Shown here: piece after piece, positions 17,660-48,857 of the stretch
Position numbering within the stretch: position 1 is the stretch's first letter
How the letters are laid out: each line of letters starts with the position of its first letter
NCBI GenBank assembly: GCA_902798585.1
Contig: CADBXF010000012.1
Location: 1 to 61,043 of the forward strand
DNA from: an uncultured Lachnospiraceae bacterium
Lineage (GTDB): Bacteria > Bacillota > Clostridia > Lachnospirales > Lachnospiraceae
DNA: 61,043 nucleotides
Direction of reading: 5' to 3'
Notes under the pieces: model-generated
What the model was told of the DNA's origin: nothing
What the model saw: only the letters and a program-made list of their open reading frames with translations
Databases searched by the model: none
Position numbers and translations under genes: made by a program

Positions 17660-18517
17660 TTATTTCCGGTACTGCGTCATCAGGAATTCCATGATTCCCT
17701 CGGCCTCCTGCGCCGCCATCCGGGCAATTGCCTCGTCCGTCTCGATATACTGTACATCCGCATCGTTGTCGAGGTAGCAGCTCTCGAGAATGACCGCAAC
17801 AACGCCGAGGTCCGCTCCGTGGCGGTTGATTGCGTAGTAATCCACAGGCACTCCGTTGCTGTCCTTCGTGTCCAGACTGTCCTTTTTGTACGGTCCCCGG
17901 TTCTTGAGGCCCATCCCTTCCAGTTTCGCCAGAAGACACTTTGCAAGCGCCTCCGAGTTCCCCGTGATATTCGGCTGTTTCGAAATACACACCATGGAGC
18001 CGAAGGCATTGTGATACTCCGAGGAATTCAAATGCATGCTGATCATGATGTCCGCATTTTTCTCCTTGGCAAACTCAACGCGGGCCCGCAGGTCCTTCGA
18101 GTTGTCCTCAAAGAAAATCGTGTCGTCCGAGCGCGTCAGATACACGGTCACATTATCGTAATGCGTCTCCAAATACTCCTTAAGAAGCTTCGCGTGGGTA
18201 AGATTCAGAGTTTTCTCAACGAACCTCCCGTATACCGCGCCGCCGAATTTGGCGCCGTGGCCCGGGTCAAGCACCACCACAAAGGTAGGAAGCGGCGTCG
18301 GGGTCGGCGTGTCAGTCGGAGGGATTGTCCCGTCGTCGGAAAATTTTCCTCCGGAGACAATATCCTTCTCTCCCGCCTTATAAGTCCCGTTTCCGTCCTC
18401 GTCGTAAGAACCGACTTTCGTATAATATCCGAGATCATCATCGTCCGGATTCTTTCCGCAGGCGCACAAAGCCAAGCTGCAAAGCGCCATCGCAAGCAGT
18501 AATACTGTTTTTCTCAT
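17660..18517 (-). CDS. N-acetylmuramoyl-L-alanine amidase lipoprotein
   Basis: A 285-residue lipoprotein with lipobox LCAC near residue 19, an acidic linker and an Amidase_3 catalytic domain from about residue 80. DPGHGA, a Glu in RFVEKT, SMHLN and ILESCYLDN supply the metal and catalytic residues. It is much simpler than the 2045-3766 amidase: no SH3 region and no tail. The ATG at 18517 has GGGAG 8 bases upstream. It lies 49 bases after cotH with no terminator between, so it is probably the last gene of that unit. Confidence 0.92.
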   Translation of the reverse strand: MRKTVLLLAMALCSLALCACGKNPDDDDLGYYTKVGSYDEDGNGTYKAGEKDIVSGGKFSDDGTIPPTDTPTPTPLPTFVVVLDPGHGAKFGGAVYGRFVEKTLNLTHAKLLKEYLETHYDNVTVYLTRSDDTIFFEDNSKDLRARVEFAKEKNADIMISMHLNSSEYHNAFGSMVCISKQPNITGNSEALAKCLLAKLEGMGLKNRGPYKKDSLDTKDSNGVPVDYYAINRHGADLGVVAVILESCYLDNDADVQYIETDEAIARMAAQEAEGIMEFLMTQYRK

Positions 18518-18566: not shown

Positions 18567-20645
18567 TTATCGATATCTGCGAACCACAATGGTCGCGATA
18601 ATCAGACCCGTAATCACAACCACAAGGACTGCGATTCCGGTCTTATTCACACCGCCGGTCTTCTTGTCCGCCGCAGGCGACGGAACCGGCGTTGCGGTCG
18701 GCACAGGCGTCGGAGTCGGATCCGGAATCCGCTCGAAGGCGACTTCAAGCGTCATCCCGTCCGGTGCGCCGGGACCGATTGTCCACTCGGAAGCGGCGGT
18801 CTTAAGATCGCCCGAGACTCCTGCGTAGGTATGCTTCGGGGAATGAATGACAACCGCAAACTCTGCGGGATAATTTTTCGGGCATACTGCCGTAAATGCC
18901 CCGTCAACATAGTTCGGACTGTCCTCCGTAATCCGAATTCCGTTGTACACAAGGCTCGCGACGGAGGCGTCAAACTTTACCGTCACCGTCCGGTAACCGC
19001 CGAATGAAAAATGCTTCTCCAGCTGTTCGAAGACATTTTTCGCGCGATATTTCGCATAAGTAGTAAGTGTCTCAAGACCCGTGCGGTAGGCTCCGGTCAT
19101 AATCCGCTTGCGCTGCAGCGGCTCCAGGTCCTTGTAGAGCCCGGAAATCCGCGTAACTGTCTCCGTGAGAGCCTCCGCCGAAAAATCGGTATTCAGACGG
19201 TCGACCATCCGGGTGACAAAGCGTCTTACGAAGGAATCATTTTTCACGAATGCCCGGAACAATGCCGTCGCATCGTTCTGATACGGATGGAGCGTACCAC
19301 CCGCCGTCAGCATCTGTTCGAATGTGTCCCTCTTTGTGGAGCGCCCGTAAAGGCCCCATGCGTACTCCGTGTCGTAGAGCAGCCAGCGGAGGCGCCCGTC
19401 GCGGCCGGGTTCGTCCGAAACCGGTCCGAGATACCTCCAGGCCTTGCAGTTGTTGCCGGGCCAGTCCTCGTTCGCGATGAAAAACTGAATGCAGTAGTAA
19501 TCGATAAAGTTGTCGATATCGAGATACTGCTCGACTTTTGCAAACGCCTCATCGCTCGAGAGGTCGGTCTCCGTACAGTAGCGGAACACCTCCTGGTACC
19601 AGGAAATCTGCTCGCGCACGATATCATCGGTCGCCGACTCCGCCGCAATATGGATTCTTCCTGCGCCGTCGAAGGTGTACTCGAAAATAACGCACTGCTC
19701 CTCCTTGATGTCGTAGTGCTCCTTGATGTAATGCTCGTCAAATCTCTCCTGAAGGTTGAACAGGCCGTACAGCTCGCCGTTTAAGTATACGATGACAGGC
19801 CGGGCCGCCATGTGGTCCACGCCTGTGTCCTTCATCAGATAGTGCGCAAGAACATCGCGCATCATCGTGTTGTCGTGCGAGGAGCCCTCATTGCCGCCGT
19901 TTCGAAGCAGCAGCCGTCGGAAGCTGTCAATCGGTTCGCCGTTTTCATCGTAAGCTCCGCAGATTGCGCCGTCCTCAAAAAAATCATACTCGAACTTGTT
20001 CTGTTCATCGTACTCCGAACGCGCATACAAACGAAGCGATTTTACGCGGAAGCTCCGGCTCGCCGCGCCGTGAAAGCGCATGCCGGCCTTCATCGAGACC
20101 GCGGGTCCGTCGTCCGTAAAATACGTCACATGGACCGGGCGTTCCCACTCCCTGCCGCGCTTTGAGAAGTTTTTCAGGATGCCGGTCTTTTCGCCGCTGA
20201 GGTTGCCCTCATCAGTCACGAGCGACCAGATCGGAAGCGCGAAACGGTCGGTGAATTCCGGGCCGACGAAATAGGTCTTCGTCGCAACCGCGGAGTGTCT
20301 GCCGTCCTTCATCACCGCCATGTAACGGATCACTCTCGCCTTCGGCTCGCCGTATGCATCCTTCTCTCCCGCCGTCAGCCGAATCGGACCGGTGTAGGGC
20401 ATTGTCGACGGACTTCCGGGCGCCGGGGTCGAGCAATCCTCCGTGTAATAGACGGTCGCTCCCTCCGGCACATCGATGGTGACTTCCACCGTTTCCTCGT
20501 AAAATCCCTGCTCCGGGCTTGCCGCCGGCAGTTCCGCCGTCTCCTCCGTCACGGAGGGCTCTGCGGCTTTCGCGCCGGGGATTGCAAGAAGCGCGAAGGT
20601 CAAAAGACCGAGAATAATCCGCCTTGTCCAAGTAAACTTTCTCAT
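18567..20645 (-). CDS. CotH-family kinase-like exported protein
   Basis: A 692-residue protein: signal peptide (1-28), a chitobiase/Fn3-like beta segment (about 45-125), a CotH domain (about 150-510), a beta region, a short Thr-Pro linker and a C-terminal TM (about 665-688) with a basic tail. CotH marks include LLLRNGGNE, FIANEDWPGNN and LYDTEYAWG. CotH is a secreted atypical protein kinase in Bacillus spore coats; related proteins occur on non-spore surfaces. Its ATG overlaps the stop of the EAL protein gene by four bases (ATGA), so the two are translationally coupled. The anchor suggests a cell-surface rather than coat location. Confidence 0.9.
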   Translation of the reverse strand: MRKFTWTRRIILGLLTFALLAIPGAKAAEPSVTEETAELPAASPEQGFYEETVEVTIDVPEGATVYYTEDCSTPAPGSPSTMPYTGPIRLTAGEKDAYGEPKARVIRYMAVMKDGRHSAVATKTYFVGPEFTDRFALPIWSLVTDEGNLSGEKTGILKNFSKRGREWERPVHVTYFTDDGPAVSMKAGMRFHGAASRSFRVKSLRLYARSEYDEQNKFEYDFFEDGAICGAYDENGEPIDSFRRLLLRNGGNEGSSHDNTMMRDVLAHYLMKDTGVDHMAARPVIVYLNGELYGLFNLQERFDEHYIKEHYDIKEEQCVIFEYTFDGAGRIHIAAESATDDIVREQISWYQEVFRYCTETDLSSDEAFAKVEQYLDIDNFIDYYCIQFFIANEDWPGNNCKAWRYLGPVSDEPGRDGRLRWLLYDTEYAWGLYGRSTKRDTFEQMLTAGGTLHPYQNDATALFRAFVKNDSFVRRFVTRMVDRLNTDFSAEALTETVTRISGLYKDLEPLQRKRIMTGAYRTGLETLTTYAKYRAKNVFEQLEKHFSFGGYRTVTVKFDASVASLVYNGIRITEDSPNYVDGAFTAVCPKNYPAEFAVVIHSPKHTYAGVSGDLKTAASEWTIGPGAPDGMTLEVAFERIPDPTPTPVPTATPVPSPAADKKTGGVNKTGIAVLVVVITGLIIATIVVRRYR

Positions 20646-23600
20646 GTGTTTGTTTCCGTTCCTTCTGCGTCAGGCCCGACGCATTGTAAGAAATTCATAG
20701 CCTCCTCCGCATATCCGAAAGGAATCTTGGAGGCCGAGGCCAGGTGGAAGACAAAAGTCGTGGTCTCGAACTGCCCGCGGCCGGCATTGGTGCCGGAGCC
20801 GACAGCTATGACCGAAGAACCCTCGCAGCGAATGTTCACCGTGGATCCGATGATGCGAATCGAAGCGTCGCCGCCCCGGTTGCCGATGCCCACGCATCGT
20901 TTGGCCTTCATCTCGGTCTGGAATTCACAGTCGATCAGGCGCGCCTGCATCCTGTCGTTGGTCAGCGTGCCGATGCCTACCTGCGTATCTCCGGAGGTGA
21001 TGCACGCAATCCGTGCGTTTCGGATGTCTACATGAGGCTCGCCGCCGACGGAACCGATTCCTACGCCGCGGTCGGAATTCACACGGGCAAGCACGCGTGT
21101 ATTTTGCACGAAAACATTGGCGGTATTGCTCGTTGAACCGATGCCGAGCGCCTGTTCACCGGTCATCGTCAGATAAAGGTTTTTGCATTTTTCGATGCGC
21201 ACTCCCGTATCCCGGAGATATCCTCCGCCGATGCCGACAACCTCGCGTCCGTCGCCGTGCACGGTCAACTCGCCGTCCATGTTGATGACGATGCGGCCGA
21301 CCGACTGGTTGCTGTCGCCGCCGATGCCGAAACTCCGGTCCGCGCTGACATTTACATAGAGCTTGCCGTTGCCCTCAATCGTGAGCGACGAGCTCTCCGG
21401 AACGCGGATTCCGGCGTCCTGCAGCGTGACATTGCCGTCGATGACAAGCGTCACATCGCTTCGGTTTCCGATCTCGATACACGGCCGCCGCTGATAGGAC
21501 TCCAGCTGCAGGCTCCGCAGGTGGATGCGGCTCACGGTATTGTCCGGAATGTGCACCACGATGTCCGCCTGATGCTTCGTATTGCCGACCAGAATGCAGT
21601 CCGGTTTCGGAACCACAAGCTCCGTGTAGCCGTCCATCACGAGGGAAAGAACCGGAACCTCGCTCTCATTGCCGACAATGTAGGTCTTCTTCTGTCGCGA
21701 CTCGATATTTCGAAGGTTCATCCGAACGATGTCATCAACAAGATCTTTCGGCAGTTCCCGGAGAAACTCCCGGTTCGGCCGTCCCGTATAGTAGCCCTGC
21801 ACTAAGTCGACGCCGAGACGGATTACGGTGTTGAGTTCCTCCCGCGTCTCCACGCCCTCCGCCAGTGCAAGGAAACCGTTTTCGTGCGCGAACTGAACGG
21901 TGTTGGACACAAAATACTGCTTCTTGTTGTCCTCGTTCACGCCGGAGATCAGCACACGGTCGATTTTCACATAGTCCGGCGCATAGTTTAAGAGGTTTGA
22001 GATATTGGAATAGCCCGCACCGTAGTCGTCGATGGCAAGCTGCATTCCGTGGTCCGAGCAGCGCTTCTTGATCAGTCTCACCTGCTCCTGCGTCGCTTCC
22101 GACTGCTCCGTGAATTCGATGACAACGCTGGAAAGCACATCCTCACAGCTTGCCGCGAGCTTCTCAAAATCCTTGTCGTTGATTAAGACGCTCGGAATGC
22201 TGTTGACGAAAAGCTTTCGCCCGTTGATCATCTCACGGTACCGCCGAAGCAGCGCCAGCGTGTTGAAAAATGTATGCCGCTCGACATCGTAGAGACGGTC
22301 GATTGCCTCCGCATGACGCAAAATGGTCTCCGGATTCAGGGACATCTCGGAGCCTGCGCGCATAAGCGCCTCGTAGGCGAAAATATCACCGGTTTTGGCG
22401 TTGACAATGGGCTGGAAGCAGTACGACAGAAGGTTGTCGTCGAGAAGACGCGTAACCTCCGCTCTCTCCGCCTCATCGAAGCAGTCGGGGTCGCCCGAGT
22501 GCTTCTTATTTTCCTTGTAGGACTTCTTGTCCGCCAGCACGCCCGCCGTGATTGTCGCGATGTCCGCTTCTTCCGTCACATCCTCGCAGACTTTGGCGTA
22601 TGCGATGTCAACGCTGTACGACTTGTTGTTGAAGTTGTTGTAGGTCTGCAGACGCGAACGCAGGTTGGCAAGAAGCCCCCTCGCATCGTTGTCCGTATCG
22701 TAGAAGCCCGCAATCACAAACTCGTCGTTGCCGAACCTCGCGCAGATGTCGCGGTCGTTCATTGTCGCCTGCAGCATCTTCGTCAGTGAAAGAAGCACCT
22801 CGTTGCCCTCGTCGCGCCCGTAGGTGTCGTTGATTGTCGAAAAACGCTCGATATCAAGCGCAATCACGCGAAGCTTCACGGCGCGATTGCCCCGATGCCG
22901 GTACATATCCGTCAGCGCATTGATGTACCCCTTGTAGTTGTACAGACCGGTCATGGCGTCACGCACCTGGTTCTGCACAGTCATGTCGTCGTACATATAC
23001 CATCGGCGTTGCGTCTCCAGACAGTGGGCAAGCTTTCGCGTCCATGCGCGGAGGCAGGGGGAAAACACCTCGGGCGAACTGCCGTAGGTGATGACCTCAT
23101 ACCCGAGCACACGGTCCATGAAATGAATCGACGCTACATAAAATACGCGCGGCTTCGCACTCTCCCGGTACAGCGCGGGAATCATGAACTCCCGGCTGAA
23201 CATCCGCCCGTCGCCGAAGGTGCTTGCGGTACGCTCATGGCAGAGCGCAAGCTCCATCTTGTCGGTCAGGTGCTTCTGTTCATCGCGCACATGAAGCGCA
23301 TTTTCATTGAGACACAGATAAAAAGACTCATAGTCTCCGAGATACTCCGTAAACTTGTCAACCGTCTGCAGGCAGGTCTTTAAATCCGCCACATTGGTGA
23401 TTTCCTCGCTCATGAAATTGAATTCCGAAGGGAATCTCTCATAGCTCTCGCGAAGCATGGTCAGCCAAAGCTCGGCATAGGAATTGCTCGAATGACGGCT
23501 GCATCCGCAGGATGCGCCGGGAATCAGGCGGCACTGCCCCTCCGAACGGTGAAGGAGGAAGTTTTCCTTCCCCTCCATAAGAGCCAGCAGCATGCGCACC

Positions 23601-24373
23601 GCGTTGCGCGCCATCTCCGTCGGATCTCGGTAAACCGTGAGAAATTCGGCGACAGGCCGATCTTCATCCGTACCGTAACCCGCGACAATGACATCCTCCG
23701 GAACCCGGACTCCCCGGCTCTCGAGCGCATTCACAAGCGCGGCAGCGCTCTCGTCGGAGACACAGATGACAGCGTCCGGAAGCCCCTCCGGGTCAGCACA
23801 CAGCCTGTCCGCAATCGCATCGCCGGAGTGAATCCAGAATCCACCCTCGAAAAACTGCGACGGATCGACGGCAAGCCCCCGCCTGTTCATCGCCTGGATG
23901 AAGTCCTCCTGCAGCGACCGGTCGAAAGGAACCGGGTCGGATGTACTCCCCGCCTCAAGGAGAATTCTTCTTGCTCCGTGGCGTTCCGTCAGGTGACCGA
24001 CCAGAAGGTCCATTCCGTTTTCCCGTCCGAACAAAACGGTCGGAAATCCGTAACCGCTCTCGCGCTCGAGGCATACCACGGGCTTGTCGAACTCCCTCCG
24101 GATGCGGTCGAGCATCTCCGCCTGGCTGTCCATATAAAATGTCGTAGGATACACAATAAGGCCGTCGAGCTCCCGAAGGTTCATCGCCTCGTAGACAGAG
24201 CACTCCGCATCGGAGTAACTCGCGTCCATGCCCGCGCGGCACAGCGTCGTAAATGTCACGACATCGATATCATTGTCCAACAATTCCTTCTGTACTTGAT
24301 ACAGGCACTGCCGGAAAAACCGGTGGTGCGCATCGGAGATCAGAACTCCGACAATCTTTCTTCTCTTATCCAT
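20642..24373 (-). CDS. Sugar-sensor/GGDEF/EAL/beta-helix protein, c-di-GMP phosphodiesterase candidate
   Basis: A 1243-residue cytoplasmic protein with no signal or TM. Residues 5-300 resemble the ligand-binding domain of LacI-type regulators but without the DNA-binding head. Residues about 300-465 are an unassigned linker. A GGDEF domain follows with the motif changed to GNDEF near 548-552, so it is probably not a cyclase. The EAL domain (about 650-870) looks complete: EALMRA, FVNSIP, EFTEQ, DDYGAG, VKID, AEGVE and VQGYY. From about 900 a beta-helix-like region has seven repeats of 28-31 residues marked GIG near 1016, 1047, 1077, 1105, 1134, 1163 and a variant at 1192. The ATG at 24373 has GGGGAGG 8 bases upstream. 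cotH is coupled downstream. Confidence 0.9.
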   Translation of the reverse strand: MDKRRKIVGVLISDAHHRFFRQCLYQVQKELLDNDIDVVTFTTLCRAGMDASYSDAECSVYEAMNLRELDGLIVYPTTFYMDSQAEMLDRIRREFDKPVVCLERESGYGFPTVLFGRENGMDLLVGHLTERHGARRILLEAGSTSDPVPFDRSLQEDFIQAMNRRGLAVDPSQFFEGGFWIHSGDAIADRLCADPEGLPDAVICVSDESAAALVNALESRGVRVPEDVIVAGYGTDEDRPVAEFLTVYRDPTEMARNAVRMLLALMEGKENFLLHRSEGQCRLIPGASCGCSRHSSNSYAELWLTMLRESYERFPSEFNFMSEEITNVADLKTCLQTVDKFTEYLGDYESFYLCLNENALHVRDEQKHLTDKMELALCHERTASTFGDGRMFSREFMIPALYRESAKPRVFYVASIHFMDRVLGYEVITYGSSPEVFSPCLRAWTRKLAHCLETQRRWYMYDDMTVQNQVRDAMTGLYNYKGYINALTDMYRHRGNRAVKLRVIALDIERFSTINDTYGRDEGNEVLLSLTKMLQATMNDRDICARFGNDEFVIAGFYDTDNDARGLLANLRSRLQTYNNFNNKSYSVDIAYAKVCEDVTEEADIATITAGVLADKKSYKENKKHSGDPDCFDEAERAEVTRLLDDNLLSYCFQPIVNAKTGDIFAYEALMRAGSEMSLNPETILRHAEAIDRLYDVERHTFFNTLALLRRYREMINGRKLFVNSIPSVLINDKDFEKLAASCEDVLSSVVIEFTEQSEATQEQVRLIKKRCSDHGMQLAIDDYGAGYSNISNLLNYAPDYVKIDRVLISGVNEDNKKQYFVSNTVQFAHENGFLALAEGVETREELNTVIRLGVDLVQGYYTGRPNREFLRELPKDLVDDIVRMNLRNIESRQKKTYIVGNESEVPVLSLVMDGYTELVVPKPDCILVGNTKHQADIVVHIPDNTVSRIHLRSLQLESYQRRPCIEIGNRSDVTLVIDGNVTLQDAGIRVPESSSLTIEGNGKLYVNVSADRSFGIGGDSNQSVGRIVINMDGELTVHGDGREVVGIGGGYLRDTGVRIEKCKNLYLTMTGEQALGIGSTSNTANVFVQNTRVLARVNSDRGVGIGSVGGEPHVDIRNARIACITSGDTQVGIGTLTNDRMQARLIDCEFQTEMKAKRCVGIGNRGGDASIRIIGSTVNIRCEGSSVIAVGSGTNAGRGQFETTTFVFHLASASKIPFGYAEEAMNFLQCVGPDAEGTETNT

Positions 24374-26884: not shown

Positions 26885-28012
26885 ATGAAAATCACATTGG
26901 ACCATGTCACCAAGAGATTTCCCAACCGCAACAAAAAAATCCACTCGGATGTCATTGCCGTCAACGATTTCACCTTTGAGATTCCGGACGGCAAGCTGAT
27001 CGGTCTTCTCGGCCCCTCCGGATGCGGCAAGAGCACGACGCTGAACCTGATCAGCGGTCTCGAGACGCCGACTTCGGGACGCATCTTCTTCGGAGATACC
27101 GATGTCACCGATGTGCCGGCCGAGAACCGCGGCGTCGGCCTCGTGTTCCAGAACTACGCGCTCTACCCTCACCTGACCGTCCTCGACAACATCATGTTCC
27201 CTCTGGGCAACCTCCGCGGCAGCGAGAAACTCACGAAGGAACAGATGCGCGACAAGGCGATGGCTGTCGCAAAGCTCGTCCAGATTGACGAACTGACCGA
27301 GCGGCGCCCGAAGGAGCTCTCCGGCGGACAGCAGCAGCGCGTTGCGATTGCGCGTGCGCTTGTAAAGATGCCGAGTGTTCTTCTGCTCGACGAGCCGCTC
27401 TCCAACCTCGACGCCCGGCTTCGCCTGCAAACGCGCGAGGAGCTTGCGCGAATCCAGCGTGAGACGGGAATCACCACGGTCTTCGTCACCCACGACCAGG
27501 AGGAGGCGATGAGCATCAGCGATCTCATCGTCGTCATGAAGGACGGTCTGTTCCAGCAGATGGGCAAGCCCCAGGATGTATACGATATCCCCGACAATCT
27601 CTTCGTCGCCAAATTCCTCGGCACCCCGCCGATCAATGTCTTCGAAGGCACCGTCCGCGACGGCCGGCTCTTCCTCGGCGAGACCGCCGTGCTGCCGGTG
27701 CACGACCTTGCGATGGGCGGCGAGCCGGTCGGGGAGCCGAAAAATGTTTTCGTCGGAATCCGGCCGGAGGGCTTTATCCCCGCAGAGGACGGCGCTCTCG
27801 CACTTACGCTTCGCAAAATTGAGGTCATGGGCCGCGACACCTCGGTCGTCGCTTCCCACGAGGCGCTCACAACACCGACGCTTCGCGCCATCGTCGCTTC
27901 CGACGCTCCGGTTTACGAGAGCGACGGCATCGTACGGTTCGACATCAAACCGTCGAAGCTCCATTTGTTTGACCGCGATACCGAAGCGCGCATCGCATTT
28001 GTCACAGACTGA
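26885..28012 (+). CDS. Sugar ABC transporter ATPase (MalK/UgpC type)
   Basis: A 375-residue CUT1 ATPase with [27 protein letters not shown] and FVTHDQ, then a TOBE-type regulatory half. It is a paralogue of the orphan ATPase at 15447 but belongs to a full transporter operon. The ATG at 26885 has GAGGAG 8 bases upstream. The first permease gene begins 11 bases after its stop. The dedicated ATPase suggests this importer does not depend on the shared MsmX-like one. Confidence 0.95.
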   Translation: MKITLDHVTKRFPNRNKKIHSDVIAVNDFTFEIPDGKLIGLLGPSGCGKSTTLNLISGLETPTSGRIFFGDTDVTDVPAENRGVGLVFQNYALYPHLTVLDNIMFPLGNLRGSEKLTKEQMRDKAMAVAKLVQIDELTERRPKELSGGQQQRVAIARALVKMPSVLLLDEPLSNLDARLRLQTREELARIQRETGITTVFVTHDQEEAMSISDLIVVMKDGLFQQMGKPQDVYDIPDNLFVAKFLGTPPINVFEGTVRDGRLFLGETAVLPVHDLAMGGEPVGEPKNVFVGIRPEGFIPAEDGALALTLRKIEVMGRDTSVVASHEALTTPTLRAIVASDAPVYESDGIVRFDIKPSKLHLFDRDTEARIAFVTD

Positions 28013-41138: not shown

Positions 41139-44100
41139 TCAAAGGCCGATTTGCTCTTCCTGCTCGCGTCTCTTCGCAATCAATACGAAGCAGAACGAAG
41201 CAGCACCAATCAGGAGTATAATCCAGCCGAACAGCATCAGGTCGTCGGTCTTCGGCGATTCCTTCTGCTCTTCTGCATCCGCCGGAAGAATCTCGACCTC
41301 AATCGTGACATCGTCGCCGTCCTCGAAAGATACGGTGAGAACCGTCTTTCCGACTTCAAGTGTATCCAGATAATCAGGCAGGAATTCGATAATTACACTG
41401 CCCTTGGACCTCTTGAAGTCTTTACCTTCCACGAGAACCCTCTTCGAATCCTTAACACCCTTGAACTTGTCGAATGTCTTCGCATCATCCAGAGTTCTCT
41501 TGATTTGAGACGCCTTCGGTGCAACACCGGACTTCAGCTTGTAAGTAATCAGCTTATCGCTGATCAGCTCATAAACACCCTTCTCATCCTTCGGATTCAC
41601 AGGCTCATCTTTCTTAATCTCGGTCTTCTCGTAGGTTGCCTTATAAGTAGCCTCGCCGGTTACCTCCGCAATCTCCGGAGTCCATCCCTTGAACTCATAG
41701 GTGTACTGTTCATCCGCTTCCTTCGTAGGAGTTTTGCCGGTGTAAGCAGGCGTTTCGCCGTACTCTGTTTCACCGCTCTGCAGCTCCGTGCCGTCCTCAT
41801 CAACAAACTTGATTGTGTACTTTCTGAGAATCTTTCGGTAGGTGGCTGTATAAGTAGCCTCGCCGGTCACCTCCGTAATCTCCGGACTCCAGCCCGCAAA
41901 CTCATAGGTATACTTGTCATCCGGTTCCTTCGTAGGATCCGCGGGCTTCACAATATCCTTCGGCTCCGTGCCGTAAGGATAATTCGTTTCTTCTGCCAAT
42001 TCGGTCTCACCGTCTTCATCTACGAAGACAACCGGGAACTCCTTAACCGTCTTCTTGTATACAGCCGTGTATGTCAAAGATCCCTCAGCATCCTCGCCGA
42101 TTACCGGCAGAAGCATATCCTTGTCGTACTCCGCACTGCCGTCCGTCCATCCGACGAATTCAAAAGTATACTGTTCCGTTTCGCCCTTAGTCGGCTCTTC
42201 ACCGGTGTACTCCGGACTGTGTCCGGGATATCCGTGAACCGTATCAAGAACGCTCGTTCCGTCGTCATCGACAAATGTTACTACTACAAACGGTTCGATT
42301 CTTGCGGATACTGCGATTGCATCCTCCGCTTCGGCAACATCAATGACAGTGAAGTACTCGTCGATTTCACCGATTTCGCCACCCTCGGGAATGGATACCC
42401 CGTGCGTTTCGGGGATTACGATTCCGCTTTTTGCATAAATCGCTTTGCCGTTGTTCGTCTTAATTTCCCAGATACCGGAAACCATCTTAATCTGGTCGGC
42501 AGAGATTCCGTTATGTTCTTCTCCCGTGACGGTAATGTACGCATCCTTTTTCATAGTCACGGCGCCGAAGTAGGAGTCGAAATCGCCTGCACGAATTCCA
42601 TCGACTTCGCTTTCCAGATTTACATTGCCATGGATTATAATCTCGCCGGAAAGCACTTCAATTGCAGCATATGCCCCGTCTGTATATTCTTCCTTAAGCA
42701 CCTGCATCTCAACATCGCCGCCGATCGTGATACCTTTCGCAGCCACTATACCGTGTCTCGATATCGATTTTCCTCCGTCAATACCGGTGACATCTCCGTC
42801 GATACTGATTGTTCCGCTGTTATCGAGTGCAAGACTCGCCGAATCAGTGTCTACGGTAAGAAGTGTTCCGTTCTTACTGTCACCGTGAACCGAGCCGTGG
42901 ATGATAATACTCCTGCTGGCATCTACCAACTTATATCCGTATCCGTCTATCGCTCCGGTAAGATTGCCGGTAATCTCAACAATTTCGCATTTGATGCCGT
43001 CCCCGTAGCGCCCGCCCGTGAGTGTAACATCTCCGTCAATCTTCAGTTTGCCGCTGACTTCGATTACAGCGTAACCCAGCATATCGACTGACGCATCCAG
43101 ATTGCCGATAATCAGAGTATCGATTTCCGCATCGTGGGAACCGCCCGCACCGATGGCTATTTCTTTTCCCTTCAGTCTGATCGGCTTATCTCCGGTACAT
43201 TCGAGAGTGACAACTCCGGCGCAAGAGATAGCACCTCGGAATTTATCTCCGATTGCAATCTCCTTTCCGACGATGGAAACATCGCCCCATGCCGTAATGC
43301 CGTGGTCTCCGCCGCCTTGAATAACACCGCAGCCCTGAATATCAACATCACCGTAGCTGAAGATTCCCGATCCGCATTGTGCATCAATCGGCAGGCTGAT
43401 GGAGAGATCGCCGACGATTGAGAGCTCACTGTTGTTCTGCGAAAGGAAGCTGATACCGAAGTGTGCAAGATTAAATTCGCCTAAATAGGACAGTTCGATG
43501 TTGAGATCTCCCTGCATCGTGATATTGCTGTTGGTACTCAGAATACCGGTGTGTGCGGAGTCACTTACCAAAGAAAGGCCCTTCTCGGCAATGATTTCAA
43601 GCGGCAATCCTTCCTCATCATCAACACAGATTAATGCTCCGTTTTGCAAATCATCGGCATCCGTATTCAAAACGATATCATCGCCGGTCAGAATGGTAAG
43701 AATCATCTTCTCAGAGGTCTGGCTGAAGGTAATTCTCTCATTTCCCGCGCCGTCGCCCAAAACATCCGATTGCGTAAGCGTGGAAACCTGCTTGCCGTCA
43801 ACCCAAATGTTGAAATATTTCACAAATGCAGCCGTAACCACTACATCGCCCTCGGGCATCTGGAAGTAGTATTCGTTGTCATTTTCCGTCTGGTTCGGAA
43901 TATCATCATTGCCGCACTTCACGGAAACACTGTCCAACTGATATCCTTCTCTGGGCTTGAGTGTCAGCGTAACCCACTCGCCCGCTTCCGCCTTATCGTT
44001 CGGACGATCGGTGTATACCGTGCCGTCAATCACTTGGTCGTGAATGATGCTGTAGAGCGTTGCCTCTTCAAACACAGCGGTAAAGTACATTTCACTATAC

Positions 44101-46664
44101 ACCGACGGCAGCTGTGACGAAGCCAGAACAGTCTCCGAACCTTCCTGCAACCATCCCAGGAAGTGATACGCGACATCCTCCTCCGCAGGCTTGGTCGGGT
44201 CATCGCCTCCGGGATAAACCGGAGTCGCTTCGTACTCATATTGACTCGTGGTCTCAACACCTTCCACATTCCAGGTGACGGTATACAGTCTTACAGACTC
44301 GTCAAACTGTGCAGTGAAGGTTACATTTCCGCCGACCTCGGGAAGCGTTTCGCCCTTGGCGTATACTACATTGTCCTTGCTGCATTTCCATCCGGAAAAT
44401 GTATATACCTTCGTATCGGACGGCGCCTTGGTCGGTTCCGCATTGGGATAAACCGGAGTGGTTCCGTAAGGAACATCCGGCTGATCGGTCACATCGCCGT
44501 CAATATCCCAGGAAACGGTATAAACCTGTGTTGTCTCTGTATAAGTCGCCTTGTAGACAACATTTTCGGTGACATCCGAGATGCCGGCCTCGCCGTTCTT
44601 CCACTCTTTGAACACATAAGAATACTGCTCATCCGGATCCTTGCTCGGATTCTGCGGCACCGTAATCTCATCTGCTGCAGTGCCCGCAAAATAGTATTTC
44701 TTCTCACCAAGCACCGTCTCCTGCTCATCGTCATCCACGAAGGTGACCGAGTAACGGGTCAGCGTCTTCTCATCCTCATGACTCTTGCCGTCAGGACTTT
44801 CTGTCGCAGGAATCATTGCTTTGAACACCGTCTTGGCAGGCGTTGTATCGGTCTCATCAATCTCCTCGATTGTGAACCAGTCTCCTTCCGCCGTCACCGT
44901 CGGATTCTCGACAGCCAGCGTGTGCGTACTTTCCTTCTCGCAAACATAGTTGGCAATCGCCTTCTTGTACCCGGTCGTTTCGCTTCCATCCCAGGTAAAA
45001 TCGACGAATTTCCAGGTATGCGCTGCCGGAATTGTCAGCTCGTCAAGCGTAACCGCCTGCGTACCGTCCGCATCTTTGAAGAGCGTTTCGCAGCGTTCGC
45101 ACTTCCAATGGGCCTCATGGCCTTCCGTCTCGCATCCGGGCGCCTCATACGGAACCTCTGTCAGCGGGAACTGATGTCCCGCAGGCTCCGCATCCTTATG
45201 GCCGGGCATGTCAATAGTGATCTCCTCGAAGAAGTATACAGGCGTACCGGCAAGCGGTGTTGTGTCGTTTGCCTTTCGCGGAAATGCCTCCCAGGGAATC
45301 GCATTCGAAGCATTATAAGTCAATGCGTATGTATTATTCTGGCCTCTGTAAGTAAGCCGACCGCCGTTTACAATCCAACGGATCCATCCGGGCTGCTGCT
45401 CTGCATTGCTGACATACACAATACACTCACTGGGATTGGTTCTTCCCGTTACATGAGCAAGCCAGCTGTCGCCGTTTTTGAAATTAAAGCTTCCAGCATC
45501 AGCGCCGGCGGTAACCGCCCAAACGGCAGCATCGTCGACGACCTTGATAAAGGTCTTCTCCGAAGTTACTCCGCCGATCGGCAAATCGTCGGTGATAATC
45601 TCGACCGCACGGTCTTCCGCTGCATAATTGTCGTTCGCACTGGGATTCGGTTTTCCGTTTGCAACGGCATGACCGGTAGTACCCGGTGTGCTTGTGTTCG
45701 TTACCACATAATTCTTCCCGGCGGTAAGTGTGTCGGTTAACACATACACCTTAACCTGCGTCGGGTTTTCCTCATCCGGCACCTGCGCCGGAATCGTATA
45801 AGTCTTCGAGACCGCTGCTCCGGTCGGGCTGTCGTTCTTGCTCACGGTGGCCGTATATGTCCACATGTCCGTTTCACTGCAGTCATCCGCAGTCGTTACG
45901 GACTTCGTAACCTGAGCTTTCCTCGTGACGGTACTGTCCCCGTCCTGGCAGGAAAAGGTTGCGGTCGCTTCCACATGAAGGTCGTTCAAAAACCATTCTG
46001 TGTCAAACACCATACTTTCGAGCCGGTAGTCGTGAACATGCGTCGAAATCTCTTTCTCCTCAAAGAGGTACACATTCGCGTTACCCTGTTGGTTGACCGC
46101 ATGGAACCCGTCGGTATTGTTGTAATTGAGGTACACCGTGCGGGTACTGTTACCGCTACTGTGATAGGTGATATACAAATGGCCGTTATACAGCCAGTTG
46201 AAATCTCTGTGATTGCCGATCACGGGGTTGGCATTGGCGGTAACCACCACACCCTGAGTTCCGTCAAGCTGCAGATAGTAGTTGTTCTCTTCACCGTCTT
46301 TGTTATACAGGCGGTTGTAACCTCCCTGTACCGCAGCCTTCCAGATTGCGAAAGCGTCGTTGAAATCGGATTCCTCGATATACGGAGCCGAAATTTCGTC
46401 TGTCGCAGCGTGAATCTCGCTGATTGCTGCGGTGCTTTTGCTGTAATCCGAATGGGACAGCGCCAAAGCGTTCGTGCCTGCGGTGTTACGGTTGACAATC
46501 AAATAGGATTTGCCTGCCGTTAAATTTTCCGAAAGCACATACACTTTTCGGGTGGTTGTCGCAGCGGTTGCGGTCTTCACCGGTGCCACATACTCGGGCA
46601 GGGCGAGCACGACCATTGCAATCACCATAATGATGCTTACCGCTCTTCTCCAAATTTTCCTCAT
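41139..46664 (-). CDS. Giant multidomain surface protein with sortase-like C-terminus
   Basis: An 1841-residue exported protein. After the signal peptide (1-35) come two related domains of roughly 170-190 residues, beginning VYVLSENLTAGKSYLIVN and VYVLTDTLTAGKNYVVTN. A Cys-pair segment (HWKCERCETLF), several InlB-type beta-grasp repeats (for example VYTFSGWKCS and AYHFLGWLQ), a beta-helix region of about 400 residues and four more beta-grasp repeats with EFKGWTPE-type endings follow. The end is SPKTDD, a TM and KRREQEEQ, resembling a variant LPXTG sorting signal. GGAGG lies 6 bases before the ATG. An adhesin or glycan-binding role is plausible but unproven. No sortase gene is in this window. 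Confidence 0.9.
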   Translation of the reverse strand: MRKIWRRAVSIIMVIAMVVLALPEYVAPVKTATAATTTRKVYVLSENLTAGKSYLIVNRNTAGTNALALSHSDYSKSTAAISEIHAATDEISAPYIEESDFNDAFAIWKAAVQGGYNRLYNKDGEENNYYLQLDGTQGVVVTANANPVIGNHRDFNWLYNGHLYITYHSSGNSTRTVYLNYNNTDGFHAVNQQGNANVYLFEEKEISTHVHDYRLESMVFDTEWFLNDLHVEATATFSCQDGDSTVTRKAQVTKSVTTADDCSETDMWTYTATVSKNDSPTGAAVSKTYTIPAQVPDEENPTQVKVYVLTDTLTAGKNYVVTNTSTPGTTGHAVANGKPNPSANDNYAAEDRAVEIITDDLPIGGVTSEKTFIKVVDDAAVWAVTAGADAGSFNFKNGDSWLAHVTGRTNPSECIVYVSNAEQQPGWIRWIVNGGRLTYRGQNNTYALTYNASNAIPWEAFPRKANDTTPLAGTPVYFFEEITIDMPGHKDAEPAGHQFPLTEVPYEAPGCETEGHEAHWKCERCETLFKDADGTQAVTLDELTIPAAHTWKFVDFTWDGSETTGYKKAIANYVCEKESTHTLAVENPTVTAEGDWFTIEEIDETDTTPAKTVFKAMIPATESPDGKSHEDEKTLTRYSVTFVDDDEQETVLGEKKYYFAGTAADEITVPQNPSKDPDEQYSYVFKEWKNGEAGISDVTENVVYKATYTETTQVYTVSWDIDGDVTDQPDVPYGTTPVYPNAEPTKAPSDTKVYTFSGWKCSKDNVVYAKGETLPEVGGNVTFTAQFDESVRLYTVTWNVEGVETTSQYEYEATPVYPGGDDPTKPAEEDVAYHFLGWLQEGSETVLASSQLPSVYSEMYFTAVFEEATLYSIIHDQVIDGTVYTDRPNDKAEAGEWVTLTLKPREGYQLDSVSVKCGNDDIPNQTENDNEYYFQMPEGDVVVTAAFVKYFNIWVDGKQVSTLTQSDVLGDGAGNERITFSQTSEKMILTILTGDDIVLNTDADDLQNGALICVDDEEGLPLEIIAEKGLSLVSDSAHTGILSTNSNITMQGDLNIELSYLGEFNLAHFGISFLSQNNSELSIVGDLSISLPIDAQCGSGIFSYGDVDIQGCGVIQGGGDHGITAWGDVSIVGKEIAIGDKFRGAISCAGVVTLECTGDKPIRLKGKEIAIGAGGSHDAEIDTLIIGNLDASVDMLGYAVIEVSGKLKIDGDVTLTGGRYGDGIKCEIVEITGNLTGAIDGYGYKLVDASRSIIIHGSVHGDSKNGTLLTVDTDSASLALDNSGTISIDGDVTGIDGGKSISRHGIVAAKGITIGGDVEMQVLKEEYTDGAYAAIEVLSGEIIIHGNVNLESEVDGIRAGDFDSYFGAVTMKKDAYITVTGEEHNGISADQIKMVSGIWEIKTNNGKAIYAKSGIVIPETHGVSIPEGGEIGEIDEYFTVIDVAEAEDAIAVSARIEPFVVVTFVDDDGTSVLDTVHGYPGHSPEYTGEEPTKGETEQYTFEFVGWTDGSAEYDKDMLLPVIGEDAEGSLTYTAVYKKTVKEFPVVFVDEDGETELAEETNYPYGTEPKDIVKPADPTKEPDDKYTYEFAGWSPEITEVTGEATYTATYRKILRKYTIKFVDEDGTELQSGETEYGETPAYTGKTPTKEADEQYTYEFKGWTPEIAEVTGEATYKATYEKTEIKKDEPVNPKDEKGVYELISDKLITYKLKSGVAPKASQIKRTLDDAKTFDKFKGVKDSKRVLVEGKDFKRSKGSVIIEFLPDYLDTLEVGKTVLTVSFEDGDDVTIEVEILPADAEEQKESPKTDDLMLFGWIILLIGAASFCFVLIAKRREQEEQIGL

Positions 46665-47780: not shown

Positions 47781-48857
47781 TCAACCGCTTATACACTGGT
47801 TCTTGCCGTTTTGCTTGGCATTGTAAAGCATCTTGTCGGCAACGCGGAAGAACTCCTCCGCAGTCATTGTATACGAGCTCATCTGAAAAATACCGCAGCT
47901 GAATGTGATGCGGCGCTCTGTCCACTCGTATTGCGTCTCCCGGAACTCCTCAAGTGAGGTGTTCATCATCTTCGCGGCGTCACGGACTTTCACATCCGGG
48001 AAGATTACCGCGAACTCCTCACCTCCGTACCGGCACACATAGTTATTTTCCCCGCAGTTTTTCTGCAAAACGCGCGCCAGATTCAAAATGACTTCGTCGC
48101 CGTTGTTATGCCCGTAGGTATCGTTGACTTTTTTGAAATCGTCGATATCGATTACGGCCAATGTCAGAGGCGCATCGTCACGGTTTCGCACAAAAGTATC
48201 AAGATAATCGTAAAATGCCGTATGATTATATAGACTCGTCATCGGGTCGCGCTCGAGCTTGTTGGCAAGGCGGGAATTGTCATTCACATGCGAACGAATC
48301 ACGCCGTCATTGTCGAGCACATACTCCATCAGGATTTCGTTGCACAGGCAGCAAAGCACAAGCAAAAACATCGCGGTGCATACATCGACCTCGATATTTT
48401 CCCCACAGGTCGGGAACAACTGCGCCGTACCGACATACTGCGCTACGGTCACCAGGCACAGAATCTCCGTCACACGGCACATCCATTTGCGGCCGTACAC
48501 TGTCGAGAGAGAAATCGGGACAGCGAACGAGCCGTACAGAACCGACGACTCTGCAGCCACGAAGCAACCGACCGTGCACAGCACCCAGAGATACAGAATC
48601 GTCGCAAAATCCTTCCACTGCACCTCGATATTCGGCGAGTCCAGCAGCCTCCACACGACGGTGTAAGTGACTGAGAATATCAGGGCAGGTATCAGGATAT
48701 AAGTCTTCAGGTACTTCGACTGACTGATCCCGGCGTACCGCGCATCCACCCGTATCAAGGCATAGTACTGCAGCACTAACAGGACCAGGATGAACGCTGT
48801 CACCATGAGCATGATAATCAGGAAATGCTTATGCAATTTTGCATACCGATTGTTCAA
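47781..48857 (-). CDS. Membrane-bound diguanylate cyclase (GGDEF)
   Basis: A 358-residue protein with five or six N-terminal TMs (to about residue 185) and a C-terminal GGDEF domain (about 195-355). The active-site motif is intact as GGEEF in RYGGEEFAV, with FKKVNDTYGHNNGDEVL upstream, so it should make c-di-GMP. No RxxD inhibitory site is evident just before the motif. The start at 48857 has GAAGGG 8 bases upstream. It follows mgtE by 15 bases and is probably cotranscribed with it. Confidence 0.92.
   Translation of the reverse strand: MNNRYAKLHKHFLIIMLMVTAFILVLLVLQYYALIRVDARYAGISQSKYLKTYILIPALIFSVTYTVVWRLLDSPNIEVQWKDFATILYLWVLCTVGCFVAAESSVLYGSFAVPISLSTVYGRKWMCRVTEILCLVTVAQYVGTAQLFPTCGENIEVDVCTAMFLLVLCCLCNEILMEYVLDNDGVIRSHVNDNSRLANKLERDPMTSLYNHTAFYDYLDTFVRNRDDAPLTLAVIDIDDFKKVNDTYGHNNGDEVILNLARVLQKNCGENNYVCRYGGEEFAVIFPDVKVRDAAKMMNTSLEEFRETQYEWTERRITFSCGIFQMSSYTMTAEEFFRVADKMLYNAKQNGKNQCISG

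Follow-up and report, generated by a model that had tools for sequence, protein, structure and literature searches.

Why would a predicted enzyme for the breakdown of cyclic diguanylate (c-di-GMP) end in a long beta-helix? The question is raised by one gene in a stretch of 61,043 nucleotides from an uncultured Lachnospiraceae bacterium (GenBank assembly GCA_902798585.1, contig CADBXF010000012.1), referred to here as the window. Its protein of 1243 amino acids (aa) consists of a LacI-type receptor domain, a middle domain, a degenerate GGDEF domain, an EAL domain, and a C-terminal beta-helix (Table 1). We observed the last two domains paired, at a nearly constant spacing and behind differing input domains, in many related proteins. 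We lean toward reading the window protein as a predicted c-di-GMP phosphodiesterase in which the beta-helix would serve as a noncatalytic arm for docking or self-assembly in the cell.

Domain organization and the EAL-helix pairing

The gene starts at 24373 and ends with a stop codon at 20644-20642. A preliminary description of the window had reported a single frame of 1243 residues at 20642..24373; this frame is present but is encoded on the minus strand, and stops interrupt the plus strand in the frame of that interval. A longer frame from 24604 would encode 1320 aa; the start at 24373 is supported by the length of the best 17 database relatives (P0003-P0019), which have 1233-1260 aa. Because relatives share 26-79% identity with the protein over 96-100% of its length, we ruled out a sequencing or frame artefact as the origin of the helix. 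Across the genus, the whole gene was matched over at least 1216 of its 1243 residues in all 22 genomes (weakest E value, 9e-118), and the frame in one of them (G016) holds a stop.

A Pfam profile scan, the check suggested in the preliminary description, matched Peripla_BP_3 at residues 127-289 (E value, 1.5e-21), Peripla_BP_1 at 8-228 (3.5e-7), GGDEF at 471-583 (2e-19; 70.4 bits, with a cutoff of 23.8), and EAL at 639-866 (2.7e-49; 168.1 bits, with a cutoff of 31.3). Nothing exceeded the cutoff after residue 866, and no helix-turn-helix (HTH) model, that of LacI included, matched the protein at an E value of ≤1. The best 25 of 40 NCBIfam matches were all to GGDEF/EAL or LacI-type models, of which the GGDEF domain model alone passed its cutoff. 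The scan thus agreed with the earlier assignment of a Peripla_BP-type sensor lacking a DNA-binding head, a variant GGDEF domain, and a complete EAL domain, and it left the C-terminal part without a family.

To place the C-terminal part among its relatives, we used 182 proteins from database searches that scored the candidates with the most shared words (the window protein is included twice, as P0001 and P0002). Our own hidden Markov model (HMM) detected the helix in 117 of them, and the EAL domain stood directly before it in all 117. The gap between the two domains was 11-15 residues in 116 of these proteins and exactly 13 in 78. The parts ahead of the pair varied. According to our HMMs, 45 proteins had the EAL-helix pair without LacI or GGDEF, 40 had the order LacI-mid-GGDEF-EAL-helix, 22 had LacI-GGDEF-EAL-helix, 6 had LacI-mid-EAL-helix, and 4 had GGDEF-EAL-helix. 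Pfam detected a weak GGDEF domain in 3 of 10 scanned members of the group of 45 (P0052, P0057, and P0059). Precomputed Pfam annotations placed an acetyltransferase (GNAT) ahead of the EAL-helix pair in P0133, P0134, P0136, P0137, and P0141, and an acetyltransferase together with a GGDEF domain in P0030. The GNAT-EAL-helix proteins suggest that acetylation and c-di-GMP breakdown may be combined in one chain; the c-di-GMP passages of a review on lysine acetylation (PMC8556138) contained nothing on GNAT-EAL fusions.

We also searched samples of genomes with the helix profile. Within the order, 5 of 295 genomes matched (E ≤ 1e-10); at E ≤ 1e-8, there were matches in 27 of 397 genomes from the family and 17 of 391 from the class. 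The source genome and a second one (G064) were included in all three samples. Some matched genomes (2, 2, and 4, respectively) had only matches lacking an EAL domain. Among 53 loci (L093/L100 being one gene and L094/L099 another, with three further matches outside the 53), an EAL domain was present in the matched frame of 42, which scored 86-450, and absent from that of 11, which scored 33-54; an apparent signal peptide opened at least 6 of the latter.

A search with alignment A1 for stand-alone helices among proteins of about 200-630 aa yielded 12 candidates. P0183, P0187, and P0189 start inside the tail of an EAL domain, P0186 just behind one, and P0192 and P0193 inside the helix, while P0184 has an unrelated front part followed by an EAL tail; we rejected these seven as truncated or chimeric contigs. 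P0185, P0188, P0190, and P0191 each carry an EAL label and were likewise rejected. There was thus no clear stand-alone case among 11 of the 12 candidates (P0194, 209 aa, was left out).

All ten named relatives whose loci were retrieved with query A4 belong to Lachnospiraceae or Lachnoclostridium assemblies, several of them labeled as rumen or forestomach material; other named relatives of the window protein come from, e.g., Ruminococcus albus and Acetatifactor. Judging from the sequences, the EAL-beta-helix pair is a recurring module in many clostridia under varied inputs and not a one-off fusion. The preliminary description knew of no protein with the full domain order. We likewise found no published description of an EAL-beta-helix architecture among the open-licence papers that our searches covered, but the protein is no singleton, the order LacI-(mid-)GGDEF-EAL-helix being present in 62 rows of our set (window protein counted twice).

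Catalytic sites of the EAL and GGDEF domains

In an alignment to solved EAL chains, the window protein retained all 11 checked sites. These include E668, N724, E753, D782, D783, K803, E839, and Q859, which we take, by comparison with RocR-type enzymes, to be the metal- and substrate-binding sites. Among the helix-bearing proteins, 115 of 116 had all 11 sites intact, a count that includes the window protein and omits its duplicate P0002.

The GGDEF signature, by contrast with these sites, is degraded. It reads GNDEF in the window protein in place of the GG(D/E)EF active-site motif of diguanylate cyclases, and residue 524, an Asp position, is Asn. Among the helix-bearing proteins with a GGDEF domain by our HMM (n = 65), the signature was GNDEF in 27, GSDEF in 10, and GGDEF in 1; it was intact in 43 of 65 helix-less matches (window reference row removed). 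On these grounds we discarded a working cyclase as an option for the window protein, the GGDEF domain of which is probably not a cyclase. The degraded GGDEF together with the intact EAL sites indicates that the predicted phosphodiesterase was kept in helix proteins and the cyclase was not.

Known EAL and GGDEF-EAL enzymes (PDB 6ifq; BlrP1, 3gfx; RocR, 3sy8; DosP, 9bgv) likewise have an EAL domain with the checked catalytic residues, and in DosP-type chains GGDEF precedes EAL, as it does here. These four structures match the GGDEF/EAL part only; the window protein adds the beta-helix, the degenerate GGDEF domain, and a cytoplasmic LacI-type input.

The C-terminal beta-helix

GIG occurs at residues 1016, 1047, 1077, 1105, 1133, and 1162, and a seventh repeat has AVG at 1190, giving spacings of 31, 30, 28, 28, 29, and 28 residues. 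None of 20000 shuffles of the domain produced 6 chained repeats under the strict definition or 7 under the relaxed one, the maxima being 2 and 3. The seven repeats of 28-31 residues noted earlier are therefore real, with six exact GIG motifs. The fold proposed for them was also supported, since an AlphaFold2 model of the C-terminal domain is a beta-helix with a predicted local distance difference test (pLDDT) score of 94.6 and a predicted template modeling (pTM) score of 0.91. In a joint model of both domains, the terminal alpha-helix of the EAL domain precedes the beta-helix.

The helix is homologous, as far as can be judged by sequence, to exported GIGGG repeat proteins of the Beta_helix_3/Cthe_2159 type, and its modeled fold is close to that of Cthe_2159 (PF14262; PDB 4phb and 4peu). 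Both exported relatives that were scanned matched PF18889 (Beta_helix_3); neither PF14262 nor PF18889 matched the window protein or 8 helix domains of alignment A1 at E ≤ 1, and no family for the domain was found in Pfam or NCBIfam. A sequence search of the PDB with A1 (E ≤ 10) returned a single match, a lipoprotein at an E value of 1.5, which we took as chance. With the helix model, the best Foldseek value was 7.7e-3, short of 1e-3, and VIA-align over the Foldseek list returned many beta-helices (top Z score, 24.9; root mean square deviation, 3.9 over 315; Vag8, 7akv). The best value in a PHROGs scan of the helix was 0.13.

Weighted conservation was computed over 116 helix domains (effective number, 68). 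Conserved positions were mostly turn glycines plus an edge motif, GIxVPESS. The polar or aromatic positions above 0.6 were K896, Y898, Y916, D944, E993, S995, and E1184; Asn was conserved above 0.6 at 971 and 982, positions occupied by R and V in the window protein. Along the linear positions of these 116 domains, no conserved acid/aromatic cluster resembling a catalytic or calcium site was evident. This pattern favors a structural or binding role over an enzymatic one. Of the two roles suggested in the preliminary description, a scaffold appears to fit better than a glycan-sensing surface, for which the conserved residues give little reason.

Predicted cellular location

No segment of the window protein is strongly hydrophobic, the highest mean over 19 residues being 1.07; the corresponding means for the neighboring amidase, deacetylase, and CotH proteins are 1.99-2.98. 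A stretch of ≥1.6 was present in 32 of 116 helix proteins, within the first 60 residues in 19 and further in for 13, the latter starting at residue 57 or later with means of 1.6-1.9. Of the 19 N-terminally anchored relatives (Table 1), 18 have two segments before the EAL domain. These pairs are preceded by 2-6 Lys/Arg within 15 residues in 16 of 18 cases and followed by 1-5 in all 18; P0058 and P0060, in which the first segment lies at the very start, have no Lys/Arg before the pair. The paired segments and flanking charges point to a hairpin with both ends, and hence the EAL domain and the helix, in the cytoplasm. P0033, with five segments, does not fit the hairpin topology in a simple way.

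From the hydrophobicity and the hairpin topology, we ruled out export of the helix together with the EAL domain, and we infer a cytoplasmic location for the helix, in keeping with the setting proposed earlier for the whole protein. Proteins of the Cthe_2159/Beta_helix_3 type have apparent signal peptides, whereas the window protein has none and its helix sits behind a cytoplasmic enzyme.

Receptor domain

Residues 1-290 matched LacI-family chains in the PDB by sequence. The ligand pocket of the LacI family includes the Asp of a G-Y/F-D motif plus an Arg. The Asp position corresponds to Gly 234 in the window protein; across 72 aligned rows (window protein counted twice), it was occupied by D in 36, N in 16, and G in 15. 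The Arg position fell on S153 or L154, depending on which of two alignments was used. With the Asp replaced and the Arg not clearly kept, the proposal that this receptor senses a sugar found no support. The ligands of the LacI-type receptors of relatives may differ. According to the review PMC8846402, diverse solutes, sugars among them, may be ligands of the Periplas_BP domains found in c-di-GMP proteins, and the one domain of the periplasmic binding protein (PBP) clan named there as studied in c-di-GMP networks is SBP_bac_3 of RmcA.

Two other LacI-type receptor-GGDEF matches were observed in the same genome (C9:72867-74736 and C5:34939-36816). The first is split over two frames; single ~650-aa frames of the same kind occur in many relatives within the genus. 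The second, like the spirochaete protein P0074, resembles the window protein in joining a Peripla_BP_3-type receptor and a GGDEF domain in one chain; unlike it, neither was found to have an EAL domain or a helix.

Phylogeny of the EAL domains

A set of 127 EAL domains, thinned at an identity threshold of 75% and including 75 with a helix, was used for a quick maximum-likelihood tree. These 75 rows and 4 helix-less LacI-GGDEF-EAL rows fell on one side of a branch with a Shimodaira-Hasegawa-like approximate likelihood ratio test (SH-aLRT) value of 82. The helix label changed 3 times on the tree, and the input label (our HMMs and precomputed Pfam) changed at least 6 times within the helix rows. 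The four helix-less proteins (P0032, P0035, P0037, and P0042) end at or soon after the joint and are nested among helix proteins. Read against the outgroup, the tree would mean that the helix was gained once and lost twice and that inputs were exchanged repeatedly.

Gene neighborhood and c-di-GMP signaling in the genus

The gene lies between a polysaccharide deacetylase gene and a gene for a CotH-type protein, the ATG of which overlaps its stop codon (ATGA). We obtained 20 loci of the genus, including that of the window; there was no locus for two of the 22 genomes. The deacetylase is the adjacent gene at all 20 loci. An amidase follows at 15 of them and CotH at 4; the stretches of the four CotH loci end before any amidase, and L016 runs off its contig. 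For this genus, the neighborhood hints at a link to the cell envelope. Among selected neighbors annotated by Pfam in another genus, a GDSL-lipase gene precedes the EAL-helix gene at two loci, one of which has a LytR-CpsA-Psr gene behind it.

Some DHH enzymes degrade pGpG, the product of EAL domains. At one locus of another genus, the frame of a DHH/DHHA1 protein (L068:8800-10275) begins 12 bases after the EAL-helix gene.

The genomes of the genus had 3-7 EAL and 6-20 GGDEF matches each, and a PilZ match was found in 1 of 22. c-di-GMP-I riboswitches were found in 9 of the 22, the genome of the window not among them; a search for c-di-GMP-II riboswitches gave 0 of 22, without any positive control match. 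When plus-strand frames at six riboswitch loci were inspected, a frame lay behind the riboswitch in L034 and L037 only, and both frames read as an exported, Pro-Thr-rich protein. Such a protein is likely a c-di-GMP output of the genus.

The window contains a second c-di-GMP gene at 47781-48857, for a GGDEF protein of 358 aa (131.8 bits), and a minus-strand frame of 1841 residues at 41139-46664.

Table 1. Features of the EAL-beta-helix gene, its neighbors, and its membrane-anchored relatives
Feature	Position	Strand	Evidence
Whole gene: LacI-type receptor, middle domain, degenerate GGDEF, EAL, beta-helix; 1243 aa	20642..24373	-	
Residues 1-290: Peripla_BP_3/LacI-type receptor domain without HTH	23504..24373	-	Pfam PF13377, 1.5e-21; PDB LacI-family chains by sequence
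Residues 291-465: middle domain without Pfam match, common to many LacI-GGDEF-EAL relatives	22979..23503	-	Own HMM "mid"
Residues 471-583: GGDEF domain, signature GNDEF	22625..22963	-	PF00990, 2e-19
Residues 639-866: EAL phosphodiesterase domain, 11/11 checked sites kept	21776..22459	-	PF00563, 2.7e-49
Residues 867-889: end of EAL, terminal alpha-helix, near-constant joint	21707..21775	-	Helix in model; spacing counts
Residues 890-1235: beta-helix domain at the C terminus, no Pfam family	20669..21706	-	AlphaFold2 model, fold matches, conservation
Residues 1016-1192: seven repeats of the GIG type (AVG in the last, GIG in the others)	20798..21328	-	Repeat count
Upstream neighbor: polysaccharide deacetylase, N-terminal hydrophobic segment	24618..25598	-	PF01522
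Downstream neighbor: CotH-type protein	18567..20645	-	PF08757
Amidase_3 (N-acetylmuramoyl-L-alanine amidase)	17660..18517	-	PF01520
Membrane-anchored EAL-helix proteins: P0052-P0060, P0162, P0164, P0168, P0169, P0171, P0173, P0175, P0176, P0149, P0033			

Proposed function and alternatives

Under the reading that we favor, i.e., an enzyme with a docking or self-assembly arm, the N-terminal LacI-type receptor would recognize a small ligand in the cytoplasm. This signal would set the activity of the EAL domain via the middle domain and the degenerate GGDEF domain, presumably through an EAL dimer. Through contacts with itself or with a partner, the beta-helix would position the enzyme, and c-di-GMP would be lowered locally, perhaps close to the envelope-building machinery. 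Bactofilin and MinC have a beta-helix fold, and neither is known to carry an EAL domain. Bactofilin (PMC12448750) and MinC (PMC6771821) are cytoplasmic proteins that form assemblies or bind partners, which resembles the role proposed here.

Several points weigh against this reading. The joint EAL-helix model had a pTM of only 0.60, so that the relative orientation of the two domains is unsure. Intact EAL sites do not set the helix proteins apart, given that 59 of 64 helix-less matches also retained 11 of 11 (reference row removed). No relatives of the deacetylase, amidase, or CotH protein lay within three frames on either side at 18 loci in 17 genomes of other genera (crude frames; blastp, 1e-5). 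The four nested relatives argue that the helix is dispensable in some lineages. As for the tree, 39 of its 124 inner branches were left open, and a long-branch warning applies to the helix split; its helix-less rows come from searches with the window protein, and near helix-less EAL domains may therefore be undersampled.

The beta-helix might instead act on the EAL dimer as an allosteric lid or spacer, setting its activity from the C-terminal side with no outside partner. The near-constant joint of 11-15 residues and the terminal EAL helix suggest a rigid coupling, and the EAL sites are retained in nearly all helix proteins. We nevertheless consider it rather unlikely, because the joint model offers no sure interface, the four nested relatives keep the same type of EAL domain and end at the joint, and 340 residues are many for a lid.

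Somewhat less credit is due to the view of the preliminary description, in which an intracellular sugar, or a glycan bound by the helix, controls c-di-GMP breakdown. The receptor does belong to the LacI/Peripla_BP_3 family, the homologs of the helix are exported Beta_helix_3/Cthe_2159-type proteins, and an ATP-binding cassette (ABC) ATPase with a MalK-type OB domain is encoded nearby on the opposite strand (26885-28012). Against this stand the Gly at the pocket Asp position and the unclear pocket Arg, the lack of an evident conserved acid/aromatic cluster along the helix, and the expectation that the cytoplasm holds no polymeric glycans; we regard sugar or glycan control as unlikely.

Least probable of all, in our judgment, is a c-di-GMP receptor or trigger protein in which a helix-bound partner is switched when the EAL domain binds c-di-GMP, and not by hydrolysis in bulk: PilZ in a single genome of the genus would call for other receptors, and PMC5052742 describes the Escherichia coli trigger phosphodiesterases PdeR and PdeL as active enzymes controlling a bound partner, but any partner here is putative and the riboswitches provide another output in part of the genus. 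PdeR and PdeL share with the proposed docking enzyme an action on both a macromolecular partner and c-di-GMP, their partner being a transcription factor or promoter (PMC5052742).

A broader version of the docking and assembly reading can be put forward tentatively. A helix of a surface protein may have been captured once by a phosphodiesterase and may now be a cytoplasmic platform that assembles or grips a partner and degrades c-di-GMP at a site of envelope construction, under interchangeable inputs (LacI-type receptor, acetyltransferase, or membrane hairpin). The EAL-helix pair would then amount to a new type of c-di-GMP signaling unit. This is possible, and clearly less probable than the docking or assembly role itself.

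In our view, research on c-di-GMP enzymes has attended mostly to the input domains ahead of GGDEF and EAL. In the EAL-helix proteins, it is the part behind the EAL domain that is constant and the inputs that vary, and a domain otherwise met in exported repeat proteins is here apparently placed inside the cell. The EAL-beta-helix module is a new variant of EAL proteins. If the helix docks or assembles, as we infer, it would offer a direct handle on local c-di-GMP signaling in Clostridia of the rumen and gut.

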